This document shows, one piece after another, positions 33,725 to 49,997 of a DNA stretch of 64,000 bases. The stretch's first letter is position 1, and every line of letters begins with the position of its first letter. The position numbers and the translations under genes were made by a program. The notes beneath the pieces were generated by a model. It was not told where the DNA came from and made no database searches. It saw nothing but the letters and a program-made list of their open reading frames with translations. Source of the DNA: Candidatus Accumulibacter cognatus (GTDB lineage Bacteria; Pseudomonadota; Gammaproteobacteria; Burkholderiales; Rhodocyclaceae); NCBI GenBank assembly GCA_013414765.1, contig CP058708.1:3281553-3345552 (forward strand), in the 5' to 3' direction.

Positions 33725-34246
33725 TCATTGAGGGTTGCCCTCGATTCTGCTGCTCGGGGCCGAACGATGGCGACTGTCCTCGGCTTCCAGTCCAGTGATG
33801 ACTTCTCCGGCGATGCGGTAGGACTTGCCGCGGAAAAGAGCCAAGACCTGTCCCTTGCGGTCGCGGATGGTTGTGTCGTAGACCCCGGTGCGCCCGGCGA
33901 GAGAACGCTCCTCACACTCGGCTTCCAGTTCTTCGCCTTCACGTGCAGGGCTGAGGAAGTCGATGTGGCAGGCCGAGGCAACCGTGTTACGGTTATAGCT
34001 ATTGCAAGCGTAGGCAAAAGCGGAGTCAGCGAGGGTAAAAAGGAAACCTCCATGGCAGATATGATGAGCATTGACCATATCTGGTCGAACAACCATCGAG
34101 AGTCGCGCATACCCTGGTCGGACAGCCATCAGACGGATGCCGATCAGCTTCAGTGCAGCGTCGCGGCTGTACATTGCTGCGGCTGTTTGTTCGGCGAGCA
34201 AGATCGGAGCTGGTGCATTGTGCCCAGCGCTATTGGACTTGGACAT
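33725..34246 (-). CDS. paaI: Hydroxyphenylacetyl-CoA thioesterase PaaI
   Basis: PaaI is a hotdog-fold thioesterase that releases CoA from dead-end phenylacetyl-CoA derivatives. The ATG at 34246 follows AAAGGAACCTGC and gives 173 residues. CHGGFLFTLADSAFAYACNS closely matches E. coli PaaI, with D74 as the catalytic aspartate, and ALFRGKSYRIAGEVITG matches its end. The last 20 or so residues are an extension absent from E. coli. The gene is divergent from paaX, whose product normally controls paa genes. Confidence 0.92.
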   Translation of the reverse strand: MSKSNSAGHNAPAPILLAEQTAAAMYSRDAALKLIGIRLMAVRPGYARLSMVVRPDMVNAHHICHGGFLFTLADSAFAYACNSYNRNTVASACHIDFLSPAREGEELEAECEERSLAGRTGVYDTTIRDRKGQVLALFRGKSYRIAGEVITGLEAEDSRHRSAPSSRIEGNPQ

Positions 34247-34601
34247 GCAGGTTCCTTTCGGAAAAGACATTGATTGGGCTGCGAGTGACAGCGTATTGCT
34301 TGGCAGGACCGGTAAAAATGGTACAAAACAAGCCGATTGATATTAAAAGGCGTATCATAACGCGCTTTTTGACAATTTTACCTTCTAGTTGATGGCTTGC
34401 TGGTAACAGGAGTCGAGCTGACAGCCTGGGGCGAATGGACGAGAACTCACAGAAACTGGTTCGAGAGGAAAGCCGTTTGATCGAGGCAGTGCCGGATTCG
34501 CTGCACGACGGGCAAGTCGCCGTCACGTGGACCAGGCGGTGCCGTTTGCTGTCTCTTCGGGGAAAGGCGATACTGGATGACGCCACAGGAATGGCGCGCC
34601 G
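34247..34601. promoter_or_regulatory. Intergenic region between divergent paaI and paaX
   Basis: These 355 bases hold no convincing gene. The stretch 34310-34390 is AT-rich, with a TTGACA at 34369-34374 but no matching -10 box at normal spacing. GCGT and ACGC arms surround ATCATA at 34351-34363. It must contain the promoters of both paaI and paaX and probably a PaaX operator, but I cannot fix either by eye. On the + strand AGGA lies 11 bases before the paaX ATG. Confidence 0.5.
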
Positions 34602-35585
34602 ATGAGTGTCGCGATACACACGCGGATCGACGAATTCAGACGGCAGAGGCGGGTGCATGCCGGTTCCTTGATTGTCTCGCTCTTTGGCGATGTCGTGTTG
34701 CCGCGGGGCGGGCGAGTCTGGCTGGGCAGCCTGATTCATTTGCTTGGGCCCTTGGGGATCAATGAGCGCTCGGTCAGGACTGCCGTCTTTCGCCTGACCA
34801 AAGACGAATGGCTGTGTAGCGAAGCACTGGGCCGTCGTAGCGAATACCGCCTCACGACTTCCGGAGAGCGTCGCTGTGCCGATGCAGCGCGACAAATCTA
34901 TGCTGCCCGCGCGCCGCACTGGGATCGTCGTTGGCGACAAATTCTGGTACTTGGCGCGTTCGCTCAGAAGGACCGCGAGGCCCTGCGCCGAGCTCTCTTC
35001 TGGCAAGGTTTTGGTGCCTTGGGCGCGGAGTGTTTCGTGCACCCCAGCGCGGACCTGCCACGTGTCCTTGACGCACTGCTGGCGGACGGTCTGGCGCATT
35101 TGCTGGCCGGGTTGATGCCGTTGCTTGCCGCAGATGCCAGCCTGGTGGGTACAGCTGGAAACGCCGACTTGGTCGCACGGGCCTGGGACCTGCGCGAACT
35201 CGGGCAGGCCTATGCCGAGTTCGTCAGTACCTATAATTCTGTCCTGGTGGAACTACGTAGCGATCCCCTTGCCACAGCCGATGAAGAGGGCGCTTTTCTC
35301 CTGCGATTACTATTGATTCACGACTATCGGCGCTTGCTACTGCGCGACCCGGAACTTCCCGAGCAATTGTTGCCTGCGGAGTGGCCGGGAGAGCGCGCGC
35401 GGCTGCTCTGCAAGGATCTCTACCGACGATTGCTGGTGCCTGCCGAGCGCCATCTTGACCGTCTATTGTTGACCGCGGACGGTGTTTGTCCACCTCTACA
35501 ACCGATCGTATACGAGCGTTTCGCCGAAGACGATCCGCTGCGCTGCCTTCGCCTTGACGTATCAGATCATGCCGGCGAGAAATAA
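34602..35585 (+). CDS. paaX: Phenylacetate-responsive repressor PaaX
   Basis: PaaX represses phenylacetate catabolism genes until phenylacetyl-CoA is bound. The 327 residues match the family length (E. coli 316). The N-terminal winged helix includes SLIVSLFGDVVLPRGGRVWL and GINERSVRTAVFRLTKDEWL, and the C-terminal domain contains LLLIHDYRRLLLRDPELPEQ and LPAEWPGERA, all diagnostic. It is divergent from paaI. Its presence supports the reading of the surrounding genes as one phenylacetate regulon. Confidence 0.93.
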   Translation: MSVAIHTRIDEFRRQRRVHAGSLIVSLFGDVVLPRGGRVWLGSLIHLLGPLGINERSVRTAVFRLTKDEWLCSEALGRRSEYRLTTSGERRCADAARQIYAARAPHWDRRWRQILVLGAFAQKDREALRRALFWQGFGALGAECFVHPSADLPRVLDALLADGLAHLLAGLMPLLAADASLVGTAGNADLVARAWDLRELGQAYAEFVSTYNSVLVELRSDPLATADEEGAFLLRLLLIHDYRRLLLRDPELPEQLLPAEWPGERARLLCKDLYRRLLVPAERHLDRLLLTADGVCPPLQPIVYERFAEDDPLRCLRLDVSDHAGEK

Positions 35586-35715: not shown

Positions 35716-37386
35716 TTACGCGGTCGGACTGGCTTGTTGCTTCTTGTAGAAGCCAGTTTCGGCCAGCACGTCCTGTTCCGCAAAGGCGGCCTTTTCTCGG
35801 GCTGCGGTTTCGCTGGTGTCGAGAACCGATCCGAGCCAGGCGGCGAGAAATGCCATAGGCATCGAAAAGAGTGCAGGTTGCTCGTAGGGGAACAACGCGG
35901 TCGGATTGCCGAGGACGGTAACCCACACCGCCTTGGAGCAGACTACCAGCGTCAAGGCAGAGATCAGTCCAACCATGGCACCGAGAACGGCACCGCGAGT
36001 GGTCAGACCTTGCCAATACATCGAGAGTATCAGTACCGGGAAATTGGCCGAGGCGGCAATGCCCAGCGTGAGGCCAGACAGGAATGCCAGATTGTGCTTC
36101 TCGAACATGATCCCGAGAATGACCGCGAGCACGCCCAAGCCCAAAGAGGCAATCTTGGACACCTTGATTTCTTCAGCCTCGGTCGCCGTACCCCTCTTGA
36201 TCGCGTTGGCGTAAATGTCATGCGAAATCGCCGAAGCTCCGGCGAGAGCGAGTCCCGACACTACTGCCAGGATGGTTGCAAATGCCACCGCCGCCATGAA
36301 GCCGAGCAGCAGGTTTCCGCCCACGGCATGTGCCAAATGCATTGCTGGCATGTTGCCGCCGCCCAGCAATTTCCCGCCGACGATTCCTCCTTCGAAGTAC
36401 TGCGGATCGGTGCCGACGAGTACGACGGCCGACAGCCCGATCAAGCCGATCATCAGGAAGAAGAAGCCCATCAGGCCGGTGGCAACGAAGGCACTCTTGC
36501 GCGATTCCACGGCATTCGGTACCGTAAAGAAACGCATCAGGATGTGCGGCAGACCGGCGGTACCGAAGACCATTCCAAGTGCCAGAGAAACAGCGGAAAT
36601 CGGGTCGGAGAACATGACACCGGGGGCGAGGATCTTGATTCCGTCCTTATGCACGGCGGCGGCTTTGCTGGCCAGCGTTTCGAAGCTGAAGCCGAATTTC
36701 GAGAAAGCCAGCAAGGCCATTAAGGTGCCGCCGGAAACCAGCAGAACAGCCTTGACGATCTGCACCCAGGTTGTGGCCAGCATTCCCCCGAAAGTTACAT
36801 AGATGACCATCAGCACGCCTACTGCAACTACGGCGATCCAGTACTCGACCCCGAACAACAGCTTGATTACCTGGCCGGCACCCACCATCTGAGCGATCAG
36901 GTAGAAAATGACTACAGTGAGGGAGCAGATCGCCGCTGTAGTGCGTACGGGACGCTGCGACAGACGAAAAGACGTGACATCGGCAAAGGTATAGCGCCCG
37001 AGATTGCGCAGCCGCTCCGCCATGATGAAAAGAATCATCGGAAAGGCTACGATCAGGCACAGGCAATAGAGAAAGCCGTCATAGCCCTTGGCGAAAATCA
37101 GGCTGCTGATGCCGAGTAGTGTTGCTGCGGAGAGCAAGTCGCCAGCGATCGCGAAGCCATTCTGGGTGCCGGTGATGCCTCCCCCTGCAGCATAGTAATC
37201 GCTGGCCGTCCTTGTACGCTTGGCTGCCCAATAAGTGATCGCGAGCGTGATCGAGACAAAGAGCAGAAACATTGCAATGGCCGGAATGTTGGCGGTTTGT
37301 GCTTGGCTTCCTGGCGTAGCCAACGCCAGGCCTGTCCAGGTCAGCAATCCAAGGCTCGTGATCGATTTTGGCGTCAGTCCACTCAT
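35716..37386 (-). CDS. actP: Sodium:solute symporter, ActP-type (acetate or phenylacetate permease)
   Basis: This is an inner-membrane cation/monocarboxylate symporter of the SSS family. The 556 residues start [20 protein letters not shown] with an N-terminal leader-like segment and about 13 hydrophobic helices. [20 protein letters not shown] and [20 protein letters not shown] match E. coli ActP. AGGAGG lies seven bases before the ATG, and the gene overlaps the DUF485 gene by four bases. The close relatives PaaL/PhaJ import phenylacetate, so with paaX next door either acetate or phenylacetate could be the substrate. Sequence alone does not separate them. Confidence 0.88.
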
Positions 37387-37694
37387 TGGTTGGCCTCCTG
37401 TACAATCTGATCGCTCAGGCCGTCGAAATCGCGGCTGGCACGGCGAACGTAGATGCCGGTCGCCACCCAGAAAAACACGATCATCGCCACCCCCAGGGGG
37501 ATGGCGATGGTCGTCACGCCGGCACTTGATACGGGTGTTGCCAAGATGCTTGGTTTGAACGCCACGATCAATACGAAAGAAAAGAACACGCCCAGTGTGC
37601 TGCCAGCTAATAGCCAGGCCAGTCGCTTTCGGCGCCTGACCAGTTCTGCGTATCTAGGATGGCTGAGAATCCTTTGGTAGATTTCGGTGGACAT
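37383..37694 (-). CDS. DUF485 membrane protein (YjcH-like) paired with ActP
   Basis: The ATG at 37694 gives 103 residues, the length of E. coli YjcH (104). Two hydrophobic segments are visible ([19 protein letters not shown] and [19 protein letters not shown]). DUF485 proteins almost always precede actP-like genes and are thought to help the symporter; their mechanism is not known. GAGGAG is 11 bases upstream. The stop overlaps the actP start (ATGA). Confidence 0.88.
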
Positions 37695-38022
37695 ACGAAT
37701 CTTGTCTCCTCTTGATGAATTCGAGGTGCCTGAATTTGCACGCATCCCTCGATGGTCTGCTGGTTTTTTTGATATCAGTCCCCAACCGCGAAAACAGGTT
37801 CTTTCATCTTCCTACATAGGCTTCCCTCCTTTGGGCTCCTGAGCGGGGTGAATGGCACGTATCCAGTGCCCTGCGCTTCCTGCAGCGAGGCGCTCGACCG
37901 TCAGTTCTGTATGTGATGACGAGCACATGCTTCTAGCTTCTACGATCGTGCTGAGGTGGCCGTGGGAAGCGGGTGTGCAGGCGGGCCGTCGTCAAGGGCG
38001 CATTCACCCACAACGCATCCTG
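37695..38022. promoter_or_regulatory. Intergenic region upstream of the DUF485-actP pair
   Basis: These 328 bases lie between the end of the reductase gene and the start of the DUF485 gene, both on the - strand. I see no gene and no clear terminator. The region is GC-rich at its reductase end and more AT-rich near 37740-37830, where a promoter for the symporter pair is expected. No -35/-10 pair is good enough to call. Confidence 0.45.
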
Positions 38023-39090
38023 TTAGCTGATCGGGGTCTGAAGCGAGACCATGTGGCTGATGGGTGCGACCACAGGCCGTTGTTGTTGGAAATAGCCTTC
38101 GCTATGAATCATCTTGGGCTTGGCGCCCAAGGCTTTTACTGCCGAGACACAGTCTTCAACGAAAGCAGGGCTGCCAGCGATGAAAATGGAGAAATCCGAC
38201 AGATCGCTGAACAGAGAGGGGAGGACCTGGGGCACGCGGCCACAGAGACCCTCATGCTGTTCGCGTGTCAGCGTATAGATGTAGCGAAACCCCGGGTGTT
38301 TGGCTTGCCACCATGCCATCAGGCCCGATTCATACAAATCGTGGGTGGTACGTGCAGAGAACAACAGGGTGACCGGTTGGCTGTAGCCACGACGCAAGGC
38401 CGCGTCAGCCAGGGCCAGTACCGGCGCTAGGCCTGAACCAGCAGCAATGCATAGCACCGGCGCGTCAACCGAAGGATCACCGATGAATGTGCCATAGGGT
38501 CCCGACAAGGTTACGGTGTTGCCGACATTCAGATGCTGGTGTACCCATGAGCTGGTGACGCCGTCGTCGACGCGCGTGATTTGCAGAGAGATTTCGCCGT
38601 CTGGTCGGGGGGCGTTGGCAATCGAGTAAGAGCGCGGGGGAATGCCGGACTGGGGTGAGCCGAGCATGATGTATTGTCCTGGCCAGTAACGCATGGGTGA
38701 GGCAAGTGGCCGCAGCCGCAATTCCAGAATGCGGGGTGTACGCATCAGGCGATCGACGACGATGAACTCCTGGTTTTCTCGGGGCGGGAAGAGTTTTGGC
38801 TGGGCATCCTCGGTACCCCAATCGATGACCAATTCATCGGAAATTGGTTTGGCCATGCACATCAGCCCGTAACCCTCATGGCGCTCCTGCTGGGAAAGGG
38901 CCATGTCCAGAACGAAGCCCTGGTCGAAGGTGCCGCTCAAAACCTTAACCTTGCATTCTCCACAGGCCCCGGCACGACAATTGTTGGGCAAGGCATAACC
39001 GGCGGCTTCCAGCGCTTCGAGTACCGCGCTACCTTCCTGACATTCGACGATGTGTCCCGAAGGGTGCAAACGAATATGTTTCATGGCCAT
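38023..39090 (-). CDS. 2Fe-2S/FAD/NAD(P)H oxygenase reductase
   Basis: This is an electron-transfer reductase for a non-heme oxygenase. The 355 residues have an N-terminal plant-type ferredoxin domain with C38, C43, C46 and C78 (NCRAGACGECKVKV and LMCMAKP). An FAD domain follows with PRSYSIANAP, then an NAD(P) domain with CIAAGSGLAPVLALA and IFIAGSPAFVEDCV. The ferredoxin-first order is that of methane or benzoate oxygenase reductases, not of PaaE, whose ferredoxin domain is at the C-terminus. It lies 72 bases downstream of the diiron gene on the same strand and is surely its partner. The ribosome-binding site is weak. Confidence 0.9.
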   Translation of the reverse strand: MAMKHIRLHPSGHIVECQEGSAVLEALEAAGYALPNNCRAGACGECKVKVLSGTFDQGFVLDMALSQQERHEGYGLMCMAKPISDELVIDWGTEDAQPKLFPPRENQEFIVVDRLMRTPRILELRLRPLASPMRYWPGQYIMLGSPQSGIPPRSYSIANAPRPDGEISLQITRVDDGVTSSWVHQHLNVGNTVTLSGPYGTFIGDPSVDAPVLCIAAGSGLAPVLALADAALRRGYSQPVTLLFSARTTHDLYESGLMAWWQAKHPGFRYIYTLTREQHEGLCGRVPQVLPSLFSDLSDFSIFIAGSPAFVEDCVSAVKALGAKPKMIHSEGYFQQQRPVVAPISHMVSLQTPIS

Positions 39091-39162
39091 TCACGTATTC
39101 AACCAAGTGATCAACGGTGGCCCAGCAACGGGCCTCCTTCCCCTAACGAAAAAGTTTCCGGT

Positions 39163-40188
39163 CTAGAACACTGGAATGATGTCCTCCATGTCCACATCGC
39201 GAATTTCCTCGCCGGTGATACCCACCTCGGGGATTGCCGGGAAGGGAATGTCGAACTTGTCGAGAACTCCCTTGAGGTTGAGCATCGCGTTGCGCCAGTT
39301 GTCTTTCTTCGCTTCATATTCCGGGATGTGGAAACCTGCGCTGCGGGCAATGGCTTCAGCTTCGCGCTGGTTGGCGATGAAGTCCTTCGGAATATCCCAG
39401 AAATCCTCTGGCGGTTCGAAGAGAACGCCTGACAGGAACAGGAATCCGGCTCGGATCTGCTTGGTGATCAGCGGCCGATCCGTGAGGTCGAGTTTGGGAT
39501 AGTCGCGCTCCATCAGCGACATGCAAATCGCCATGTGCCGTCCTTCGTCCCGTCCAACATTGCGGAATGCCTCCTTGAATACCGGCTCCACGCATTGCGC
39601 AGCCATCTGGTGGAAGATCGTCGCGGCGGCGATTTCGCCCATCAGGAAGGAACTGAAAAGAACGGCGAGACTGTATTTGGGGACTGCCGTCTTGTACCCC
39701 TCCCAATAACGGGAGCCGTTGTAGTACAGCCAGTGCGCATTTTTCTGGGCTTTCCGGCCGATCTCTGTTTTCGGAACGTAAGTAAGAACATCGGGGTGTT
39801 CAAGCAGTCTGGTGATAGCCATTCCGCACAGTTGCTCGTGGTTCTGCTCGTCACGAGTCACCGAGAAAAAGCAGCGCCTGACGGCCTCTTCCTCATGGGC
39901 TTCGTAGGTCTTGATCAGTGCCGCGGCGAATACGGGGGGCGCGGAGGCGTCGAAAACGGACAGGATGGTCCACCAATAGGCTATGGCTTCCCGTTGCTCC
40001 CACGAGTATTTCGACAGATCCAGGGTGTTCCAGGGAAGTTTTTTGGGGTCCCAGGCTTCGCGCAGCGAAGAATCCCAAATGTCTTCCAGTTTCCTGGTCT
40101 TGGCAGGCCAACTCAGCGGAAAGATGTTGGGCTGCTCGGTTGCCGTCGGCAATTCCATTTTGCCAGCGATGCGCTCATGTTTCGACAT
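39163..40188 (-). CDS. Ferritin-like diiron oxygenase, probable catalytic component
   Basis: The ATG at 40188 follows AAAGGGAATCATCC and gives 341 residues. The pattern of carboxylates and histidines is that of a ferritin/R2-like diiron centre: E96 or E99-101, E114-x-x-H117 (TRDEQNHE), E185 (MGEIAAATIFHQM) and E215-x-x-H218 (GRDEGRHMAI). It does not resemble PaaA or BoxB as I know them. The downstream 2Fe-2S/FAD reductase and the surrounding paa genes suggest oxidation of an aromatic acid or its CoA thioester. I do not recognise a characterised family member. N-oxygenases of the AurF kind and fatty-acyl hydroxylases are other options. Confidence 0.75.
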   Translation of the reverse strand: MSKHERIAGKMELPTATEQPNIFPLSWPAKTRKLEDIWDSSLREAWDPKKLPWNTLDLSKYSWEQREAIAYWWTILSVFDASAPPVFAAALIKTYEAHEEEAVRRCFFSVTRDEQNHEQLCGMAITRLLEHPDVLTYVPKTEIGRKAQKNAHWLYYNGSRYWEGYKTAVPKYSLAVLFSSFLMGEIAAATIFHQMAAQCVEPVFKEAFRNVGRDEGRHMAICMSLMERDYPKLDLTDRPLITKQIRAGFLFLSGVLFEPPEDFWDIPKDFIANQREAEAIARSAGFHIPEYEAKKDNWRNAMLNLKGVLDKFDIPFPAIPEVGITGEEIRDVDMEDIIPVF

Positions 40189-40623: not shown

Positions 40624-40709
40624 TTCTCATTAGGATTATTGCTAGGCCGCCGCCCTGATTGAGCCGTTGGCGAGGGCGAGGCGTTGATGTAAAACTATGT
40701 GGAGGAACT

Positions 40710-42371
40710 ATGGCTCACCCCTTGTTTGAAAGGCACCGTGCAACTCTGGATGCCGCCCTTGAAGCGATTCGTGTTCGCGGCTACTGGTCAGCGTATTCCG
40801 AGATGCCGAGCCCCAAGGTCTATGGGGAAACAGCGATGCAGGATGGCAAGGCCGCCATCGATGCCTTGCGTGGTCAGGAGTTTTTGCTTGACATGCCGGG
40901 GCGGATCGGGGCGGTGGCGTCCGAACGTTCGCCTTACGGCGTGGAACTGTCGATCAGCTATCCGGAATGCGATCCGCAGGCGCTCATCGATGCCGGTCTA
41001 GCGGCCATGCCGGCATGGCAGAAGGTCGGTGCCGACGGCCGTACCGGAATTTGCCTTGAGGCGCTGCAGCGCATCAATCAGCGCAGCTTCGAGATTGCCC
41101 ATGCGGTGATGATGACCACCGGGCAAGGCTGGATGATGGCATTCCAGGCCGGCGGGCCGCATGCGCAGGACCGCGGATTGGAGGCGCTTGCCTATGCCTG
41201 GCGAGAGATGTCCTTTGTGCCGAACGAAGCGCTTTGGGAAAAACCTCAGGGCAAGAACCCACCGCTGACGATGCGCAAGCACTTCGAGATTGTTGGCCGT
41301 GGCGTGGCCTTGGTGATTGGTTGCGGGACCTTCCCGACCTGGAATACCTATCCGGGTCTTTTCGCAGCGCTGGCGACAGGCAATGCCGTGATTGTCAAGC
41401 CGCATGAAAACGCCATCCTGCCGGCGGCGATATCGGTCAGGATCATCCGCGAAGTACTGGCGGAAAACGGCATCGATCCGAATCTGGTGACGCTTGCGGT
41501 GACCTCGGACCGCAAGACGACGCAGGCGCTGGCGGTCAATCCGGCGGTGAAGTCTGTAGATTTCACCGGCAGTAATGCCTTTGGGGAATGGTTGAAGGAA
41601 CATTGTCGACAGGCACAGGTGTATGCAGAGCTGGCGGGTGTGAACAACGTGATCATTGAATCCACCGATGACTACAAGGGAATGTTGAAGAATCTGGCTT
41701 TCACCTTGGCGCTCTACTCCGGGCAGATGTGTACGACGACGCAAGCGATCATCGTGCCGGCGGATGGCATTGAAACCGATGAAGGGCACAAGAGCTTCGA
41801 CCAGATTGGCGCGGATCTCGGGGCAGCGCTTGACGGCTTGTTGGCGAAACCCGAAATCGCTACTGCGGTTCTCGGCGCCATTCAATCGTCCGACACTCTG
41901 GCCCGGCTGGCCGACGCGGCGGCGCTTGGCGAGGTCGTGGTCGCTTCGCGCAAGATCGAGCACGCGGAATATCCCATGGCAGAAGTCCGCACGCCCATCA
42001 TTCTCAAATGTGATGCTGCCGATGAAGGGGCCTACATGCAGGAGCGCTTTGGCCCGATCAGCTTTCTAGTCCGTGTGCAGAACAGTACTGCCGCTGTCGC
42101 GTTGTCGGAGCGCCTGGTGCATGAACACGGTGCCTTGACGGTTGGTCTCTATTCGACGCAACCCGAAGTGGTCGAAGCCGTGACCGCTGCGACTTGCCGT
42201 GCCAAGGTGGCACTGTCGATCAACCTGACCAGCGCGGTTTATGTCAACCAGTCAGCCGCTTTTTCTGACTACCATGCGACCGGGGGCAATCCTGCGGCAA
42301 CGACCTGTTATGCCGATGCCGCATTCGTCGCCAGCCGTTTCCGTGTCGTACAAAGGCGTTATCACGTCTAG
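40710..42371 (+). CDS. paaN: Phenylacetate degradation aldehyde dehydrogenase PaaN
   Basis: PaaN-type proteins oxidise the open-ring semialdehyde-CoA formed after hydrolysis of oxepin-CoA. The ATG at 40710 follows TGGAGGAACT and gives 553 residues. GRGVALVIGCGTFPTWNTYP begins the NAD-binding half, AELAGVNN holds the general base and C341 in GQMCTTTQAI is the catalytic cysteine. The protein ends without the MaoC-like hydratase domain that the two-domain PaaZ has, so a separate hydratase must open the oxepin ring. The family name is clear from the overall pattern. It starts the + strand paa cluster. Confidence 0.88.
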   Translation: MAHPLFERHRATLDAALEAIRVRGYWSAYSEMPSPKVYGETAMQDGKAAIDALRGQEFLLDMPGRIGAVASERSPYGVELSISYPECDPQALIDAGLAAMPAWQKVGADGRTGICLEALQRINQRSFEIAHAVMMTTGQGWMMAFQAGGPHAQDRGLEALAYAWREMSFVPNEALWEKPQGKNPPLTMRKHFEIVGRGVALVIGCGTFPTWNTYPGLFAALATGNAVIVKPHENAILPAAISVRIIREVLAENGIDPNLVTLAVTSDRKTTQALAVNPAVKSVDFTGSNAFGEWLKEHCRQAQVYAELAGVNNVIIESTDDYKGMLKNLAFTLALYSGQMCTTTQAIIVPADGIETDEGHKSFDQIGADLGAALDGLLAKPEIATAVLGAIQSSDTLARLADAAALGEVVVASRKIEHAEYPMAEVRTPIILKCDAADEGAYMQERFGPISFLVRVQNSTAAVALSERLVHEHGALTVGLYSTQPEVVEAVTAATCRAKVALSINLTSAVYVNQSAAFSDYHATGGNPAATTCYADAAFVASRFRVVQRRYHV

Positions 42372-42611
42372 CGCTTCACGGGTCTGGCGCTTGGGTCGAA
42401 GGCCGCGGTGCATGCAGGGCGCGCCGCCGGCCGCTGAAGCCAATAGGCTGGTCTGCAAGGGTCATCCGACGGTGCACTGTGGTTGCGCAGAGACCGAGAC
42501 CGAGAGTGAAGTGGTCCGTGGCCGAAAGCGTTCCTCCGCCAGCTGGCGAGCACGGAGAACGTTCCTGGGCCGGGATCTTGCCCAACAACCTGGTGAATGA
42601 AAGGGGTGTGC

Positions 42612-43403
42612 ATGGCTTTCGAGACTATTCTTTTCTCCGTTGTGGACGGAGTGGCGCGTCTGACGCTGAATCGACCGGATCGCCTCAACAGTTTTACCGA
42701 ACAGATGCACGCGGAAGTGAGGGCGGCCCTGGCGCTGCTCCGCGAGGACAGAACGGCGCGCGTCTTCGTTCTCAGTGGCGCTGGCAGAGGTTTCTGCGCC
42801 GGTCAGGACCTGGCCGATCGAAGTGTCTTGCCTGGAGAGGCCCCGGTGGATCTGGGAGCCAGCGTCGAGAACAATTACAAACCGCTCGTCCTGGCGCTCC
42901 AGAATCTGGCGATGCCCACGATCTGTGCGGTGAATGGCGTTGCCGCCGGGGCGGGTGCCAACCTTGCTCTGGCCTGCGACCTGGTTGTGGCCAGCCGTTC
43001 CGCATCCTTCATCCAGTCATTCAGCAAGATCGGTCTGATCCCGGATACGGGGGGGACTTACGTATTGCCGCAGCGCATCGGCGTTGCACGCGCAATGGGG
43101 CTGGCATTGCTCGGAGACAAGCTTGCAGCCGAACAGGCGGCCGCATGGGGCTTGATCTGGTCATGTGTCGATGACGCGCAGTTCGCTGAGACAGTGGACC
43201 GTCTGGCCGCACAACTCGCACTGGCTCCGACCAAGGCGCTGGTCCGCACGCGGCAGGCGATGCGCGCCAGCCATCTCAACACTCTGGAGCAGCAACTCGA
43301 CCTCGAACGCGACTTCATGCGCGAACTCGGTCACAGTGACGATTATCGGGAAGGCGTCAGTGCCTTCATGGAAAAGCGGTCGCCGCGGTATACCGGCGAA
43401 TAG
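42612..43403 (+). CDS. paaG: Ring 1,2-epoxyphenylacetyl-CoA isomerase PaaG
   Basis: PaaG isomerises the ring epoxide of phenylacetyl-CoA to oxepin-CoA and also shifts double bonds later in the pathway. The ATG at 42612 with AAAGGGG upstream gives 263 residues (E. coli 262). The crotonase motifs GAGRGFCAGQDL, CAVNGVAAGAGANLAL and FSKIGLIPDTGGTYVLPQ are nearly those of E. coli, including the catalytic aspartate in IPDTGG. LDLERDFMRELGHSDDYREG closes the protein. A 240-base GC-rich gap separates it from paaN, with no gene in it. Confidence 0.94.
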   Translation: MAFETILFSVVDGVARLTLNRPDRLNSFTEQMHAEVRAALALLREDRTARVFVLSGAGRGFCAGQDLADRSVLPGEAPVDLGASVENNYKPLVLALQNLAMPTICAVNGVAAGAGANLALACDLVVASRSASFIQSFSKIGLIPDTGGTYVLPQRIGVARAMGLALLGDKLAAEQAAAWGLIWSCVDDAQFAETVDRLAAQLALAPTKALVRTRQAMRASHLNTLEQQLDLERDFMRELGHSDDYREGVSAFMEKRSPRYTGE

Positions 43404-43585: not shown

Positions 43586-44911
43586 GTGACCAGCAAAACC
43601 CCCCAGCCGGGAGATTTGGAGCCCATTGAAACCGCCAGCCGCGACGAGATCTCGGCATTGCAATTGCAGCGCTTGAAGTGGAGCCTGAAGCATGCGTATG
43701 ACAACGTTCCGCACTACCAACGGACTTTTTCCGCTGCGGGTGTCCATCCGGACGACTTGCGCAGTCTTGAAGACCTGGCGAAGTTCCCGTTCACGACCAA
43801 GGTTGATTTGCGGGACAACTATCCTTTTGGCTTGTTTGCAGTGCCGCGCGAGAAAGTGGTGCGCGTGCACGCCTCGTCGGGAACCACCGGCAAACCGGTG
43901 GTGGTCGGGTATACCCGTAACGACATAGACATGTGGGCCAATGTCGTGGCGCGGTCGATCCGCGCAGCTGGTGGGCGGCCCGGCGACATCGTGCACGTGA
44001 CTTACGGTTACGGACTATTCACCGGTGGCCTGGGTGCGCACTATGGTGCCGAGCGCCTGGGTTGTACTGTGATTCCAATGTCCGGCGGTAATACCGAAAA
44101 ACAGGTCCAGATCATTCAGGATTTTAAGCCCGACATCATCATGGTGACCCCTTCGTACATGCTGGTGATCGCCGAAGAGTTCGCAAATCAGGGCCTTGAC
44201 GGTCGCGACTGCTCGCTCAAGTTGGGAATTTTCGGGGCCGAACCCTGGACCAATGAAATGCGTCGCGAAATCGAATCCAAGATGGGTCTTGATGCGGTGG
44301 ATATCTATGGTCTTTCGGAGGTCATCGGCCCCGGCGTGGCTAGTGAATGCGTGGAAACGAAAGATGGCCCGGTGATCTGGGAAGACCATTTCTACCCTGA
44401 AGTGATCAACCCGGAGACCGGTGAAGTGTGTGCCGATGGCGAGGAGGGCGAACTGGTGTTCACCTCTCTGACCAAGGAGGCTTTCCCGGTCATTCGCTAC
44501 CGGACTCGCGACCTGACCCGTTTGCTGCCCCCGACGGCGCGTTCCTTCCGTCGGCTGGCGAAAATCGTCGGGCGTTCCGACGACATGTTGATCATCCGTG
44601 GGGTGAACGTATTCCCGACACAGATCGAGGAAATGATCCTTCGCGACGACAAATTGTCCGGGCAATACCAGATCGTGGTGTCCCGCGATGGCCTCATGGA
44701 CCAAATGGAAGTGCTGTGTGAACTGCAGCCAGGCGTCGCCAAGCAAATGTCTCCGGCCGACGTCGCAAGCGTGGGACGACGTTTGCAGCAGACCATCAAG
44801 TCGCTGATCGGCGTATCGACCCAGGTTCAGGTCCTGCCGCCAAACTCGATCACCCGAACCTTGGTGGGCAAGGCCAAGCGGGTCATCGACAAGAGGTTGG
44901 GTAATGGCTGA
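43586..44911 (+). CDS. paaK: Phenylacetate-CoA ligase PaaK (GTG start)
   Basis: PaaK activates phenylacetate to phenylacetyl-CoA with ATP, the first step of the aerobic pathway. The start is GTG at 43586 behind AAGGAGGAGATC, giving 441 residues. The AMP-binding loop [15 protein letters not shown] spans about residues 96-110. [37 protein letters not shown] and [13 protein letters not shown] are family signatures, and the C-terminal domain [15 protein letters not shown] is complete. Its last eight bases overlap the start of paaJ, so the two are coupled. Confidence 0.95.
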
Positions 44912-46109
44912 AGCGTTCATCTGCGACGCAGTGCGAACGCCGGTCGGTCGCTATGGGGGCAGCCTGGCCACTTTACGGGCCGACGATCTGGCTAGCCTGC
45001 CGATTCGGGCCCTGGTCGAGCGCAATCCGGGTGTCGCCTGGGAGCAGGTCGATGACGTCGTCTATGGATGCGCCAATCAGGCCGGTGAGGACAATCGCGA
45101 TGTGGCGCGCATGGCCGTTCTTCTTGCGGGTCTGCCAGTGGATGTCCCGGGAAGCACGCTCAATCGCTTATGCGGTTCCGGTCTGGACGCGATTGCCCAG
45201 GCCGCACGCGCGATTCGCTCCAGGGAAGCGGACCTGATGATTGCCGGCGGTGTCGAAAGCATGTCGCGGGCACCGTTCGTCATGGGCAAGGCCGCCAGCG
45301 CTTTTCAGCGCAGCCTTGAAGTATTTGATACGACCATCGGCTGGCGTTTTGTTAACCCGAAAATGAAGGCCATGTACGGGATCGACTCGATGCCAGAAAC
45401 GGCCGAGAACGTCGCTGCCGAGTTTGCCATCAGCCGCAGCGATCAGGATGCATTCGCGTGGCGTAGCCAGCAGCGCTGGGCGGCTGCCGACGCTGCCGGC
45501 CGTTTCGCGGACGAGATTCTGGCCGTCGAGATTGCGCAACAGAAGGGCGAGCCCAAACGATTTGTTCGTGATGAGCATGCACGTCCGGAGGTGACGCTGG
45601 AAGCGCTGGCGGCGCTGAAAGGAGTGGTCAAGAGTGGCGGTACGATCACTGCCGGTAACGCGTCCGGAGTCAATGATGGCGCATGTGCGCTGCTTGTTGC
45701 CAGCGAGGCGTCGGCGGCGCGTCATGGCCTGGTTCCCAAGGCACGCATCGTCGGCGCTGCAGTCGCCGGCGTTCCACCGCGCATCATGGGGATCGGGCCG
45801 GCACCCGCGACGCGCAAGCTGCTCGCGCGCCTGGGTATCGATCTCATGGACATCGATTTGATCGAGCTGAACGAAGCGTTTGCAGCGCAGGGGCTGGCCG
45901 TGTTGCGGCAATTGGGCCTGCCCGATGATGCCGAACAGGTTAATCCCAATGGTGGCGCCATCGCCATTGGCCATCCTCTGGGAATGAGCGGGGCAAGGCT
46001 GGCGACAACGGCTACCTACGAGCTGCAGCGACGCGGTGGCCGTTATGCCCTATGTACGATGTGCATCGGTGTCGGACAAGGCATTGCGATGTTGCTGGAA
46101 CGGGTCTGA
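44904..46109 (+). CDS. paaJ: 3-oxoadipyl-CoA thiolase PaaJ/PcaF
   Basis: This thiolase cleaves 3-oxoadipyl-CoA to succinyl-CoA and acetyl-CoA and, in the paa pathway, also removes acetyl-CoA from the 3-oxo dehydrosuberyl-CoA intermediate. The 401 residues have C90 (RLCGSGLDA), H357 ([12 protein letters not shown]) and C387 (TMCIGVGQG). The N-terminus [20 protein letters not shown] and the [15 protein letters not shown] segment are characteristic of the 3-oxoadipyl-CoA group. It overlaps paaK by eight bases and converges with the AraC gene. Confidence 0.93.
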
Positions 46110-46160: not shown

Positions 46161-47180
46161 TCAGGTTTTCAGCGTGCGCTGCCGATAGACGCCGGGAGCC
46201 ACGCCGGTCCAGGTCTTGAACGCCCGGTAGAAAGCGGCAGCATCCGAAAAACCGATGTGTTCGGCGATTTCCTCGATCGACAGACGAGAGTGATCGAGGC
46301 AGTCGATCGCGACGTCGCGGCGCAGACCGTCCTTGATTTCCTGGAAGTTGGTGCCTTCGCCAATCAGCCTGCGGTGCAAGGTGCGCTGCGAAAACCCGAC
46401 CGCTTGTGCCGCTTCGGCGATGTCCACATGCGCCGGCAGCGCATCTTTCAGGATGGCTCGGATCTTCTCGCTGAGCAGGTCGGTGGCGCGATATTGCCAC
46501 AGCAGATTTCCCGGTGCGGCGCGCAGGAACTGGTGTAGAGAGTCGACGTCCTGGCTGACTGCCCGGTCAAGGTAAGGCACCGGGATGCCCATGGCCGATA
46601 CGGGTGCGGAAAAGGCAATTTCGCCAGGGAACAAACGAGCGTATTCGTCCCCGTGTATCGGACACGGCCCCGCGAAACGTACTGCCGTCAATTTGATGCG
46701 TTCGCCGATGAGCCAAGAAGCAAGGATATGCAGGCTTTTGAAATAAACGACCGGGAGGAAAGTCGGGTGTTGTTGAGAGCGGGAGGAGGGCCCGGTCAAG
46801 GTGATCCAGGCAACATCGCCTTCCTTTCGGAAGTTCAGGTGAATCTCGTCGGTCAGCAGGCGGTGGGCTTTGACCCAGCGTGCCAGTACCACGTATAGCG
46901 ACAGGGCACCAAACAGCGATGCACGGGCAAGGAAGACGAAGGAACCTCGTCGCAGCGGCTTGGCAAGGTGGCCCATCATTTCATCGTCCAGCTCGTCCAT
47001 CAGCGAAAGTACCAGGGTTTGGTATTGGGTTCCGGAGATGCGTGCCAATGGTAATTCGATCAACTCGCGCGGGATATTCGCATGTTCCAGAAACGGCTGC
47101 GGATCTTGCTGGCGGAGTTTGAGTCCACCCAGCGTTTCACGTACGAAGCCGATGTGTACGGAGATCGGAGGCGAGTTCAT
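46161..47180 (-). CDS. AraC-family transcriptional regulator
   Basis: The ATG at 47180 gives 339 residues starting MNSPPISVHIGFVRETLGGL. The frame is open further upstream, but that part covers a promoter-like AT-rich region. The first 230 residues look like the arabinose-binding-type sensor domain of the OruR/ArgR-like AraC group. The end has two helix-turn-helix units (AEAAQAVGFSQRTLHRRL and EIAEHIGFSDAAAFYRAFK) and the closing TGVAPGVYRQR. It is divergent from the MaoC/acyl-CoA synthetase/phaC genes and probably controls them. The inducer is unknown. Confidence 0.88.
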   Translation of the reverse strand: MNSPPISVHIGFVRETLGGLKLRQQDPQPFLEHANIPRELIELPLARISGTQYQTLVLSLMDELDDEMMGHLAKPLRRGSFVFLARASLFGALSLYVVLARWVKAHRLLTDEIHLNFRKEGDVAWITLTGPSSRSQQHPTFLPVVYFKSLHILASWLIGERIKLTAVRFAGPCPIHGDEYARLFPGEIAFSAPVSAMGIPVPYLDRAVSQDVDSLHQFLRAAPGNLLWQYRATDLLSEKIRAILKDALPAHVDIAEAAQAVGFSQRTLHRRLIGEGTNFQEIKDGLRRDVAIDCLDHSRLSIEEIAEHIGFSDAAAFYRAFKTWTGVAPGVYRQRTLKT

Positions 47181-47199
47181 GGTGTCCAAAGTTCCTGGG

Positions 47200-47225
47200 A
47201 AATTTTGGCAAATTTTGCAATTTTT
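47200..47225. repeat. Phased A/T tracts upstream of the AraC gene
   Basis: AAATTTT, AAATTTT and AATTTTT occur at 47200, 47210 and 47219, about one helical turn apart. Such phasing is known to bend DNA. The tracts lie immediately upstream of the AraC start. Confidence 0.5.
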
Positions 47226-47283
47226 AGGCGTTCGGTGCAATGGCGTTCGGGCAGTCCTTTGCTTTAGCATTTGCGCTGTGGAC

Positions 47284-47318
47284 ATTGACAACACAGGGTA
47301 GTTATTGACAACCGGGTA
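47284..47318 (+). promoter_or_regulatory. Direct repeats, probable AraC-type operator
   Basis: ATTGACAAC occurs at 47284-47292 and again at 47304-47312, exactly 20 bases apart, each followed by GGGTA. Direct half-sites two helical turns apart are the pattern bound by AraC proteins. The repeats lie in the divergent space between the AraC gene and the MaoC gene. TTGACA inside each repeat could also be a -35 box. Confidence 0.55.
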
Positions 47319-47361
47319 AGGCAGGACACCTGCGGGTGAGACCCGATTTTGGGAGGCAGCG

Positions 47362-47802
47362 ATGATCGACAAGAAGTGGATTGGCTACACAGGACCAGAA
47401 GTAAGCTTTGATATTGAAAGAGGAAGATTGAAATTCTTCGCGCAGGCGATCGGCGAAAGCAATCCGATCTATCTGGATCAGAAAGCGGCACAGGCGGCTG
47501 GTTACCGCGACTTGCCGGTACCCCCGACTTTCCTGTTGGCGGCTGATCTGGACTCGAATGAACTGTTCAGTACCTTGGCAAAAATGGGCGTGTCGCTGGG
47601 AAAAATCCTGCATGGCGAGCAGGGCTACACCTATCACCAGCCGGTCTGTGCCGGCGAGACGGTCACGGTATGTTCGAGGATTTCCGACATCTACGACAAG
47701 AAGGGCGGAGCCTTGGAGTTCATCATCCGTGATTCGAGTGTCACCAACGCCAGCGGTGAGTTGGCGGCAGAGTTCCGTAGTGTCATTGTGGTTCGCAATT
47801 AG
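47362..47802 (+). CDS. MaoC-like dehydratase, non-catalytic-looking partner
   Basis: This 146-residue protein has the hotdog fold pattern of the FAS1-type/MaoC N-terminal dehydratase family. The hydratase motif is altered: IGESNPIYLDQKAA has E32 and Y37 where the active form has Asp and His. The next gene supplies an intact motif, so the two probably form a heteromer, as known for HadAB/HadBC and ChsH1-ChsH2. GGGAGGCAGCG precedes the ATG. It begins the + strand lipid/PHA operon, 12 bases before its partner. Confidence 0.82.
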   Translation: MIDKKWIGYTGPEVSFDIERGRLKFFAQAIGESNPIYLDQKAAQAAGYRDLPVPPTFLLAADLDSNELFSTLAKMGVSLGKILHGEQGYTYHQPVCAGETVTVCSRISDIYDKKGGALEFIIRDSSVTNASGELAAEFRSVIVVRN

Positions 47803-47813
47803 GAGAGGGTGAG

Positions 47814-48230
47814 ATGGTCGAACAGAATATGGTGATCAATGTGGGCGATGTCATTCCCGAGTTGAAACTGCCGCCGGTCACGCGTACGACGCTGGCCTTG
47901 TTCGCCGGCGCATCCGGCGATCACAACCCGATTCATGTCGACATCGATTTTGCGCGCAAGGCGGGAATGCCCGACGTGTTCGCGCATGGCATGCTGAGCA
48001 TGGCCTGGCTCGGGCGCCTGCTGACTGCCTGGGTACCGCAGTCGCAGTTGCGTACCTGGTCGGTGCGCTTTTTGGGGATCACTCATCTTGGCGACCGCGT
48101 GACCTGTGGCGGACGGGTGCTCGAGATCTTCGAAGAAAACGGCGAGCGGCGGGCCAAGCTGGAGATCCAGACCCGTAATCAGGAGGGCGAAGTCAAGATT
48201 GCTGGCGAGGCAGTGGTCTGTTTGCCCTGA
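47814..48230 (+). CDS. MaoC-like (R)-specific enoyl-CoA hydratase
   Basis: This 138-residue hotdog protein would hydrate trans-2-enoyl-CoA to (R)-3-hydroxyacyl-CoA. The hydratase-2 motif GASGDHNPIHVDIDFARKAG is intact, with D36 and H41 as the catalytic pair. With PHA synthase 1.8 kb downstream it could work like PhaJ and feed (R)-monomers from beta-oxidation to storage. Hydrolytic opening of oxepin-CoA for the nearby PaaN pathway, a job done by a MaoC domain in PaaZ, is another possibility. Confidence 0.85.
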   Translation: MVEQNMVINVGDVIPELKLPPVTRTTLALFAGASGDHNPIHVDIDFARKAGMPDVFAHGMLSMAWLGRLLTAWVPQSQLRTWSVRFLGITHLGDRVTCGGRVLEIFEENGERRAKLEIQTRNQEGEVKIAGEAVVCLP

Positions 48231-48282
48231 GGGGCATGCTGGTCATCCGACTGCGACGAGCAAGAACCAGGAGAAAACGATC

Positions 48283-49908
48283 GTGCTGGCACAAATGATG
48301 AAGGAGCCGCTACTGCTCTCCAGCGTGTTGACTCACGCCGAAAAGTATCACGGCGACGAAGAGATCGTCAGCCGAATGCCTGCGGGCCAGGTTCATCGCT
48401 ACACCTACCGCGATCTCGCGCAGCGTGTGCGGCAGACGGCAAGAGCGCTGCTGGACCTCGGCCTGGGGGAGGGCGCGTGCATTGCTACCCTGGGCTGGAA
48501 CACCTATCGGCACCTGGAATTGTATTTTGCGATTCCCTGTCTTGGTTCGGTTTGCCACACGATCAATCCACGCCTGTTTCACGAGCAAATCGTCTACATC
48601 ATCAACCACGCCGACGACGTGGCACTCTTCTTCGACGCCTCTTTTGCCCCTCTGGTCGCCGAACTGCGACATCGCTGTCCGGGGGTGAAGTATTGGGTTG
48701 CCTTGGTCGAGGCGGAAAGCATCCCGGCGGATACGCCTTTCGCTCAGTCTTACGAGGCACTGCTGACGCGTCAGCCGAGTCGGTTGGAGTGGCCATCGTT
48801 CGACGAGAATACGGCTTGTCTGCTCTGCTACACCTCCGGAACGACCGGCAACCCCAAGGGTGTTCTGTTCTCGCATCGCACGACCTTGCTGCACAGCCTG
48901 GCGACGGCCTTGCCCGACGCCTTGTCGATTTCGGCCAGAGAGGTCGTCTGCCCGATCGTGCCGATGTTTCACGCCAATGGCTGGGGTCTTCCCTACACCT
49001 GTCCGATGGTCGGCAGCAAGCTGGTCCTTGCCGGGATGAATACGGATGGCGAGAGCCTGTACCGGCTGTTCGAAGCCGAGGGAGTGACTTTTGCCGGTGC
49101 GGTGCCAACCGTATGGCAAGGGGTGATCGATTACATGCAAGCGCACGGACTCCAATTTGGCAGTTTGCGGCGATTTCTCGTGGGCGGCTCATCCTGCCCG
49201 TTTTCGATTATTCGTACCATGTGGCACGACTATGGCGTCGAGGCCCTGCCCGGTTGGGGGATGACCGAACTCAGCCCGATCGGCACGCTGACGACGACCA
49301 AGCGTAAGCACGCCAAGTGGAGCACTGACCAGTTGCTGGAGTTCAAGACCAATCACGGTCGGCCGCTATTTGGCGTCGACCTGCGTCTGGTCGGGAAAGA
49401 GGGGGAAGCCGTGCCATGCGATGGGCAATCCGTCGGTGAACTCCAGGTTCGCGGATTGTGGACGGTAGATACCTATTTCAAGAGTGATCGGAGCGCTCTG
49501 ATCGACGGCTGGTTCCCCACGGGCGACATCGCGGCGATCGATGGGGAAGGCTACCTCAGGATTACCGACCGTTCGAAGGACATGATCAAGAGCGGGGGGG
49601 AATGGATCAGTTCAATCGAACTGGAGAACATCGCCACATTGCATCCGGCGGTGGCGATGGCCGCGGCCATTGGTGTTGCCAGCATCAAGTGGGGTGAGCG
49701 CCCATTGCTGGTCGCGGTGATGAGACCGGGCCAATCCATCAGCAAACAAGAGCTGCTTGCCTGGTTCGAGGGCAAGGTTGCCAAGTGGTGGATTCCTGAC
49801 GATGTTCGCTTCGTTCCGGAGTTGCCGATGACCGCGACGGGCAAACTCTCGAAACTCACACTCCGCAAGCAATATCGGGATTTTCAACTGCCCGCAGAGG
49901 GCGAATAG
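48283..49908 (+). CDS. AlkK-like medium/long-chain acyl-CoA synthetase (GTG start)
   Basis: This enzyme would activate fatty acids to acyl-CoA via acyl-AMP. I place the start at the GTG at 48283, with CAGGAG nine bases upstream, giving 541 residues beginning MLAQMMKEPLLLSSVL. This matches the MLGQMM start of Pseudomonas AlkK, while the later ATG codons are too far from the site. The AMP-binding loop YTSGTTGNPKG is at 183-193 and MTELSPIG, GDIAAIDGEGYL and IKSGGEWISSIELEN follow. The catalytic lysine region ATGKLSKLTLRKQY ends the protein. It stands between the MaoC pair and phaC. Confidence 0.92.
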   Translation: MLAQMMKEPLLLSSVLTHAEKYHGDEEIVSRMPAGQVHRYTYRDLAQRVRQTARALLDLGLGEGACIATLGWNTYRHLELYFAIPCLGSVCHTINPRLFHEQIVYIINHADDVALFFDASFAPLVAELRHRCPGVKYWVALVEAESIPADTPFAQSYEALLTRQPSRLEWPSFDENTACLLCYTSGTTGNPKGVLFSHRTTLLHSLATALPDALSISAREVVCPIVPMFHANGWGLPYTCPMVGSKLVLAGMNTDGESLYRLFEAEGVTFAGAVPTVWQGVIDYMQAHGLQFGSLRRFLVGGSSCPFSIIRTMWHDYGVEALPGWGMTELSPIGTLTTTKRKHAKWSTDQLLEFKTNHGRPLFGVDLRLVGKEGEAVPCDGQSVGELQVRGLWTVDTYFKSDRSALIDGWFPTGDIAAIDGEGYLRITDRSKDMIKSGGEWISSIELENIATLHPAVAMAAAIGVASIKWGERPLLVAVMRPGQSISKQELLAWFEGKVAKWWIPDDVRFVPELPMTATGKLSKLTLRKQYRDFQLPAEGE

Positions 49909-49997
49909 CTCCGCAACGGCTTGGGTCTTGCCAAAAGGCATGCTCCGACGGGTCGGACTTCAGGTGGTATATGGCGATTCAATGAAAGGAAAAGGCC

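Follow-up and report, generated by a model that had tools for sequence, protein, structure and literature searches.

The window analysed here, 64,000 nucleotides of contig CP058708.1 (positions 3,281,553 to 3,345,552 of the forward strand), comes from Candidatus Accumulibacter cognatus and holds, amid genes of aerobic phenylacetate degradation, two neighbouring genes for a candidate diiron oxygenase and a reductase. Candidatus (Ca.) Accumulibacter is a sewage-treatment bacterium, and its genome is in this case a single contig of 5,169,514 bases, rated 100% complete. The pair belongs to a family without a name; it is an iron enzyme encoded by two genes, probably does the job of PaaABCDE here, and is found in many other bacteria too. 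In the known pathway, as given in the available text of PMC4498308, PaaK ligates phenylacetate to coenzyme A (CoA), PaaABCE epoxidises the ring, PaaG isomerises the product to an oxepin, and PaaZ opens and oxidises it. A literature search that left most subscription journals outside its scope returned no account that we recognised as describing the pair. The genes in question, with the evidence for each, are the following.

39163 to 40188, minus strand: candidate diiron oxygenase, 341 amino acids (open reading frame and translation; ligands D80, E114, H117, E185, E215 and H218)
38023 to 39090, minus strand: ferredoxin-first 2Fe-2S/FAD/NAD reductase, 355 amino acids (Pfam Fer2, FAD_binding_6 and NAD_binding_1 above cut-off)
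40659 to 42371, plus strand: paaN, aldehyde dehydrogenase (TIGR02288, 931.9 bits, cut-off 578.75)
42597 to 43403, plus strand: paaG, 1,2-epoxyphenylacetyl-CoA isomerase (TIGR02280, 393.3 bits, cut-off 345.15)
43586 to 44911, plus strand: paaK, phenylacetate-CoA ligase (TIGR02155, 729 bits, cut-off 646.3)
44904 to 46109, plus strand: paaJ, or 3-oxoadipyl-CoA thiolase (TIGR02430, 707.6 bits, cut-off 597)
34602 to 35585, plus strand: paaX repressor (Pfam PaaX and PaaX_C above cut-off; 44% identity by tblastn to a PaaX reference that itself passes TIGR02277, with 298.8 bits against 264.55)
33725 to 34270, minus strand: paaI thioesterase (Pfam 4HBT above cut-off; 52% by tblastn to a protein passing TIGR02286)
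35716 to 37386, minus strand: SSF symporter, downstream of the pair (SSF, 323.5 bits; PRK09395, 808 bits, cut-off 750)

The reductase gene starts 72 bases past the end of the diiron gene, and the pair is divergent from paaN-paaG-paaK-paaJ, with paaX and paaI nearby. The start of paaN is listed as TTG; an ATG 17 codons further in seems the likelier one. Open frames and translations bear out the coordinates that a first-pass annotation had given for the two proteins, and NCBIfam, Pfam and tblastn agree with its naming of PaaI, PaaX, PaaN, PaaG, PaaK and PaaJ as their neighbours. It was also right that none of PaaABCDE lies in the window, since a tblastn search with PaaA to PaaE references found none of them there, the sole paaE match being the reductase itself, at 27%. 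The oxygenase region is 99% identical to a contig of Ca. Accumulibacter vicinus (L017).

The symporter scores under the equivalog cut-off of the ActP model TIGR02711 and is a possible candidate for phenylacetate uptake; a homologue stands downstream of the pair in four Accumulibacter loci (L017-L020). A small frame at 37383-37745 on the minus strand, also downstream of the pair, overlaps the symporter gene. On the far side, positions 46161-51683 hold an AraC-type regulator adjoining paaJ, followed by two MaoC/HadAB-type hydratases, an AMP-binding ligase and a PhaC-like synthase.

The candidate oxygenase and its reductase

The oxygenase carries the E114xxH117, E215xxH218 and E185 signature from which the first-pass annotation had recognised it, and D80 makes the ligand set six. 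All six ligands are invariant in a 62-row alignment at 75-99% identity, and likewise in a 6-row alignment that extends down to 48%. In an AlphaFold2 model with a mean predicted local distance difference test score (pLDDT) of 87.3 they sit on four helices (63-81, 101-129, 174-198 and 202-232), and such a carboxylate/histidine set on a modelled helical bundle places the protein in the ferritin-like superfamily, with a predicted diiron site.

The closest fold to that of the model, distantly, is ribonucleotide reductase R2. The 50 best Foldseek matches are all of the ribonucleotide reductase R2 or R2-like ligand-binding oxidase (R2lox) kind, with a best E of 1.1e-3 and none at 0.001 or better, template modelling (TM) scores of 0.38-0.57 and identities of 10-18%. 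The Ribonuc_red_sm family gave no match for the window protein and one, at 2.2e-4, for a single one of six relatives. Among PDB sequences, a single-sequence search found no relative beyond chance, and the 62-row profile gave two matches, at chance level.

No Pfam or NCBIfam cut-off is passed by this protein. Its top Pfam match is AurF, at 24.2 bits under a cut-off of 29.6, followed by Rubrerythrin, likewise under its own cut-off, and its three NCBIfam matches reach 13-16 bits against cut-offs of 90-180. The AurF match recurs in all six relatives at E up to 1. In AurF, CmlI and DnfA, according to the available text of PMC9478400, a third histidine ligand stands four residues before the glutamate of the second ExxH motif (H209 and E213 in DnfA). 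The corresponding position of our protein, 211, is V or I in all six aligned rows, and this lack, together with the score under the cut-off, rules out membership of the AurF family. PaaA_PaaC (PF05138) is not among the Pfam matches at E 1, and a comparison by hhalign with an 8-row PaaA alignment gave a probability of 1%, so that no homology to PaaA was detected between these two profiles, both of them shallow (Neff about 1.5). Described at first as uncharacterised, the protein stays so after these profile and structure comparisons, in which it showed no orthology to a named family of the libraries searched.

The reductase has the domain order Fer2 (8-82), FAD (116-202) and NAD (215-314) in Pfam, and its cluster cysteines C38, C43, C46 and C78 are invariant in 16 rows. 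Its best NCBIfam match is BenC, with 153.5 bits against an equivalog cut-off of 430, and it scores 117.6 bits with the MmoC model (equivalog cut-off 500) and 24.7 bits with the BoxA model (cut-off 459.2). It is not a PaaE, in agreement with the first-pass annotation, which had called the ferredoxin-first reductase unlike PaaE: the TIGR02160 score is too low (129 bits, cut-off 420.8), and the Fer2 domain is N-terminal and not last.

Linkage to phenylacetate genes and proposed function

The first-pass annotation had allowed that paaABCDE could lie elsewhere in the genome. For PaaA and PaaC this is ruled out by a search with PF05138, which gave no match at E 0.001 in the one-contig genome and matched in 4 of 14 control genomes; PaaB, PaaD and PaaE were not searched for genome-wide. 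We then have, from 61 relatives each searched with the diiron protein, PF05138 and the PaaN model TIGR02288, a set of 28 Accumulibacter genomes, that of the window included. Among these 28 the diiron protein was found in 8, PaaN in 9 and PaaA/C in 1. The nine genomes with PaaN are the eight carriers of the pair, all without PaaA/C, and one genome (G295) with PaaA/C and without the pair; in the remaining 19, the diiron protein, PaaN and PaaA/C were all unseen. The informative point is that PaaN was never seen in this genus unless the pair or PaaA/C was present as well, and that no genome was seen with both. In G295 paaA, paaB, paaC, paaD and paaE are consecutive, and paaN, paaG, paaI and paaJ lie on a separate contig. 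In two Accumulibacter loci (L105 and L106) the pair, paaX and paaY stand opposite paaN, paaG, a frame judged by eye to be 3-hydroxyacyl-CoA dehydrogenase-like, paaI and paaJ.

A pattern-based scan of a species-genome collection gave 506 relatives, of which the best 80 loci were retained. In 79 of the 80 the reductase gene follows the diiron gene, starting no more than 400 bases after it; the exception (L048) is a 3.2-kb contig. With tblastn identity thresholds set gene by gene, and with many loci ending at contig ends, at least one paa gene was called in 47 of the 80; paaX is present in 33 (31-100% identity to the reference) and lies at most 1 kb away in 26. PaaN and PaaZ were searched for in 50 of the 80 carrier genomes, chosen to spread over genera: PaaN was found in at least 30, full-length PaaZ in at least 20, and either in at least 46. 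These counts are lower bounds, at most 22 PaaN and 18 PaaZ candidates having been scored per genome, and they leave out a partial PaaZ match above the cut-off, with an internal stop, in G733. In a class sample of 274 genomes PaaN was found in at least 4, one of them the window genome, with at most four candidates scored per genome. The pair is linked genomically to the phenylacetate gene set (paaK, paaG, paaN or paaZ, and paaX).

The simplest reading is that of a two-component phenylacetyl-CoA epoxidase making the ring 1,2-epoxide, because the ligase, isomerase and aldehyde dehydrogenase genes are present and the pair stands where the epoxidase is missing; we hold it to be fairly probable. The presumed substrate, electron flow and ring epoxidation would fit together as follows. 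PaaK would make phenylacetyl-CoA; electrons would pass from NAD(P)H through the FAD and the 2Fe-2S cluster of the reductase to the diiron site of a single-subunit, R2-like oxygenase; the reduced diiron would activate O2 and place one oxygen atom onto the ring of phenylacetyl-CoA; PaaG would isomerise this epoxide, giving the oxepin, and the ring-opened aldehyde would be oxidised by PaaN. From the partners PaaG and PaaN we infer an attack on the ring rather than on the side chain. The pair would be the sole epoxidase of the pathway in this Ca. Accumulibacter branch and a second one, beside PaaABCDE, in many other genomes.

Coexistence with PaaABCDE, alternatives and oxygen control

Several observations weigh against a phenylacetyl-CoA epoxidase. 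The eight Accumulibacter cases are not independent, because the pair and paaN adjoin, and no paaK was found in the 19-kb stretches L105 and L106. Four of the 50 carriers lack both PaaN and full-length PaaZ among the candidates scored. Canonical PaaA/C, defined as a PF05138 match at E at most 1e-50, is present in 48 of the 80 genomes with the pair (30/50 and 18/30), and because these carriers keep it, the redundancy needs explaining. Most of the 32 carriers without it, seven of which have a remote member only, are metagenome-assembled genomes (MAGs), where absence is weak evidence. When relatives and class samples are pooled, PaaN occurs in 19 genomes, of which 8 carry the pair and 6 have canonical PaaA/C (G295, G304, G309, G311, G318 and G202); three have only a remote PaaA-like protein (G308, G084 and G208), and two, G302 and G303, show neither enzyme. 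In G302, where PaaN is 46% identical, the 14 kb fetched hold no further paa gene; the PaaN of G303 lies on a 3-kb contig. Finally, the pair of Azospirillum stands near an HmgA-like gene, which scores 80 bits against a cut-off of 510.75.

The 48 carriers with canonical PaaA/C rule out that the pair always replaces PaaABCDE. The replacement role suggested at first is supported within Accumulibacter, where genomes with PaaN have either the pair or PaaABCDE, and fails as a general rule: many genomes have the pair in addition to PaaABCDE, and others have it as their only such enzyme. The gene order paaK-pair-paaABCDE occurs in five Comamonas-type loci (L040, L042, L043, L049 and L057), and Vitreoscilla has a full paaABCDE and paaZ within a few genes of the pair, which in V. 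filiformis is 75% identical to that of Accumulibacter. Carriers lacking PaaA/C include Ca. Accumulibacter, Magnetospirillum and Bdellovibrio-type genomes. Canonical PaaA/C is missing from 18 of the 46 carriers with PaaN or PaaZ, among them an isolate, Azospirillum isscasi, in which a remote PaaA-like protein adjoins paaX and the pair. On a tree of 62 rows labelled by the presence of canonical PaaA/C, which half of them (31) have, this label changes at least 9 times, 5 of them forced by starred branches. We give the tree little weight: it is a quick build, the length of its two outgroup branches is implausible, and MAGs supply many of the labels. Some MAG labels seem misplaced in it, with Desulfovibrionaceae (L032) and Polyangiaceae (L035 and L037) among Burkholderiales-type rows and Stygiobacter (L095) among Magnetospirillum.

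A single protein remotely like PaaA, at 26-27% identity, is encoded between the divergent genes paaN and paaG in G308, G084 and G208, which have neither canonical PaaA/C nor the pair; it may be a third epoxidase taking this slot in the pathway. The remote PaaA-like proteins lie as follows.

L100, 11123 to 11890, plus strand
L102, 11169 to 11948, plus strand
L103, 2304 to 3542, minus strand
L054, 7585 to 8403, minus strand

The pair also occurs in Bdellovibrionota and other delta-type MAGs (L039, L047, L056, L061, L070, L074, L082 and L091); none of these eight carriers has canonical PaaA/C, and full-length PaaZ is present in the genomes of L047, L061, L070 and L091. Three Variovorax plasmid clusters, L013 (4767-24433), L014 and L016, hold a 50%-identical pair together with a MaoC-type dehydratase, a crotonase, a thiolase, a CoA ligase, an ABC transporter and an FAD-linked oxidase; L013 and L014 also encode an indolepyruvate ferredoxin oxidoreductase, L013 and L016 have paaN, and paaABCDE was not found in the three stretches as fetched. 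A 48%-identical oxygenase is encoded in the actinomycete Nonomuraea (L015, 12001-12966), where tblastn with the window reductase found none in the locus.

The main alternative is that the pair oxidises another aryl-acetyl-CoA, such as a hydroxyphenylacetyl-CoA, and has no more in common with the phenylacetate pathway than the regulator and some of the enzymes further down. We consider this rather unlikely, although a good part of the gene context speaks for it: the 48 carriers that keep canonical PaaA/C, the hpa-type genes that follow a few genes further on in Vitreoscilla, the HmgA-like gene of Azospirillum and an FAH-like gene recognised by eye in loci of the same genus, and the indolepyruvate ferredoxin oxidoreductase, CoA ligase and crotonase of the 50%-identical Variovorax branch, the first of which recurs in two closer loci (L027 and L084). 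It is opposed by the window itself, with PaaK, PaaG, PaaN, PaaX and PaaI in a genome without a PaaA/C-type epoxidase, and by the alternation of the pair with PaaABCDE within one genus. That the pair is a side-chain oxygenase, or an N-oxygenase like AurF, CmlI or DnfA with a paa-linked role, is very improbable: AurF is its best Pfam match and is found in all six relatives, and the AurF-type DnfA/DnfB has a 2Fe-2S reductase encoded alongside, but the score stays under the AurF cut-off, the third histidine of the ligand set in the available text of PMC9478400 is replaced, and a side-chain hydroxylase would deprive PaaG and PaaN of their usual substrates.

A tentative refinement of the epoxidase proposal is that, in lineages with both enzymes, the pair would be a low-oxygen isoenzyme under FNR/FixK-type control. 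The 300 bases preceding the diiron gene were scanned for TTGAT-N4-ATCAA, the consensus FNR/FixK box, to which such a protein would presumably bind. The scan covered 79 cases, namely the window and 78 loci, with L032 and L080 dropped because their genes start at a contig end. An exact box was found in 19 of the 79 and in none of 40 shuffles; allowing one mismatch raises the count to 26, where the shuffles average 0.6 and never exceed 2. Exact boxes number 33 in the 80 loci together (1.42 Mb), and 19 of these fall upstream of the diiron gene. Among the other called frames, an exact box stands upstream in 22 of 1153 and one with at most one mismatch in 40 of 1153, the calling being weighted by codon-position GC with some antisense frames remaining among the calls. 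Within the loci, no box with at most one mismatch was found upstream of paaA (0/7), paaN (0/15), paaZ (0/6), paaX (0/31) or paaK (0/18).

Against this refinement, 14 of the 19 exact cases belong to Azospirillum, and the remaining five come from Simplicispira, Paraburkholderia, Azohydromonas and two MAGs (L023 and L034). Boxes with one mismatch occur in Curvibacter, in two further Azohydromonas, in Pseudothauera and in three Bdellovibrionota, and Vitreoscilla has one at -118. The intergenic region of the window and six other Accumulibacter loci contain no box with fewer than two mismatches; at two mismatches paaX (15/31) and paaN (5/15) match as well. As a control, 20 regions upstream of paaA were fetched from carrier genomes, 19 of them usable (L123 was dropped, its paaA starting before the contig end): none holds an exact box, and 11 hold a one-mismatch box. 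These 11 are all among the 14 Azospirillum genomes (L108-L121), where the box lies at about -68 of paaA. A clean split, with the pair under FNR control and paaA not, fails in Azospirillum, where by this pattern the canonical epoxidase may also be oxygen-controlled. PaaABCDE can itself be under such control in Bradyrhizobium, where subunit A of phenylacetyl-CoA epoxidase is listed as raised under microoxia in the available part of PMC6515984. For the pair, the FNR-type boxes are sequence patterns hinting at a low-oxygen use.

Breadth of the family and comparison with known systems

A broader and more doubtful proposal is that the pair represents a whole family, as yet without a name, of two-component aryl-acetyl-CoA epoxidases with an R2-like diiron protein. 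Such a family would be a counterpart of PaaABCDE, not homologous to it, across Beta- and Alphaproteobacteria and Bdellovibrionota, an outright replacement in some lineages and an FNR-controlled low-oxygen isoenzyme in others, with the remote single-gene PaaA-like protein filling the slot elsewhere. If the epoxidase proposal is true, epoxidation of an aryl-CoA ring would also have arisen on a different diiron scaffold, one that uses a single oxygenase protein. In a 2026 survey PaaA and PaaC are put forward as robust genomic markers for the degradation of phenylacetate, and the last of its context filters retained only ligases near PaaABCDE (PMC13186573). Should the pair catalyse the same step, carriers that lack PaaA/C would escape such markers; they make up 32 of the 80 genomes examined.

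Compared with PaaABCDE (PF05138; TIGR02160), the pair shares the proposed substrate and product, the partners PaaK, PaaG, PaaN or PaaZ, and PaaX, and the principle of a diiron oxygenase supplied by a 2Fe-2S/FAD reductase. It differs in having one oxygenase protein, without detected similarity to PaaA, in place of PaaA, PaaB and PaaC, and a ferredoxin-first reductase where the ferredoxin domain of PaaE is C-terminal (PMC4498308, available text). The same text describes a precedent, the benzoyl-CoA 2,3-epoxidase BoxAB, in which one diiron protein and one reductase epoxidise an aryl-CoA; BoxA, however, carries two 4Fe-4S clusters, and its model scores our reductase far under the cut-off. No BoxB-named family was among the NCBIfam matches of the oxygenase at E 0.1, in a library not checked for a BoxB model. 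The AurF/CmlI/DnfA group (PF11583) is alike in weak Pfam similarity and, in DnfA, in a neighbouring 2Fe-2S reductase gene, and unlike in the third histidine ligand, which the oxygenase of the pair lacks, besides scoring below the cut-off. R2 and R2lox proteins give the best Foldseek matches of the model, and the pair differs from them by its own reductase and its paa context. The first ligand of R2 is an aspartate, as is D80. For the reductase the top-scoring NCBIfam model is BenC, the scores with BenC and MmoC being far under the equivalog cut-offs. Both of these reductases share the domain order of the one encoded beside the oxygenase.

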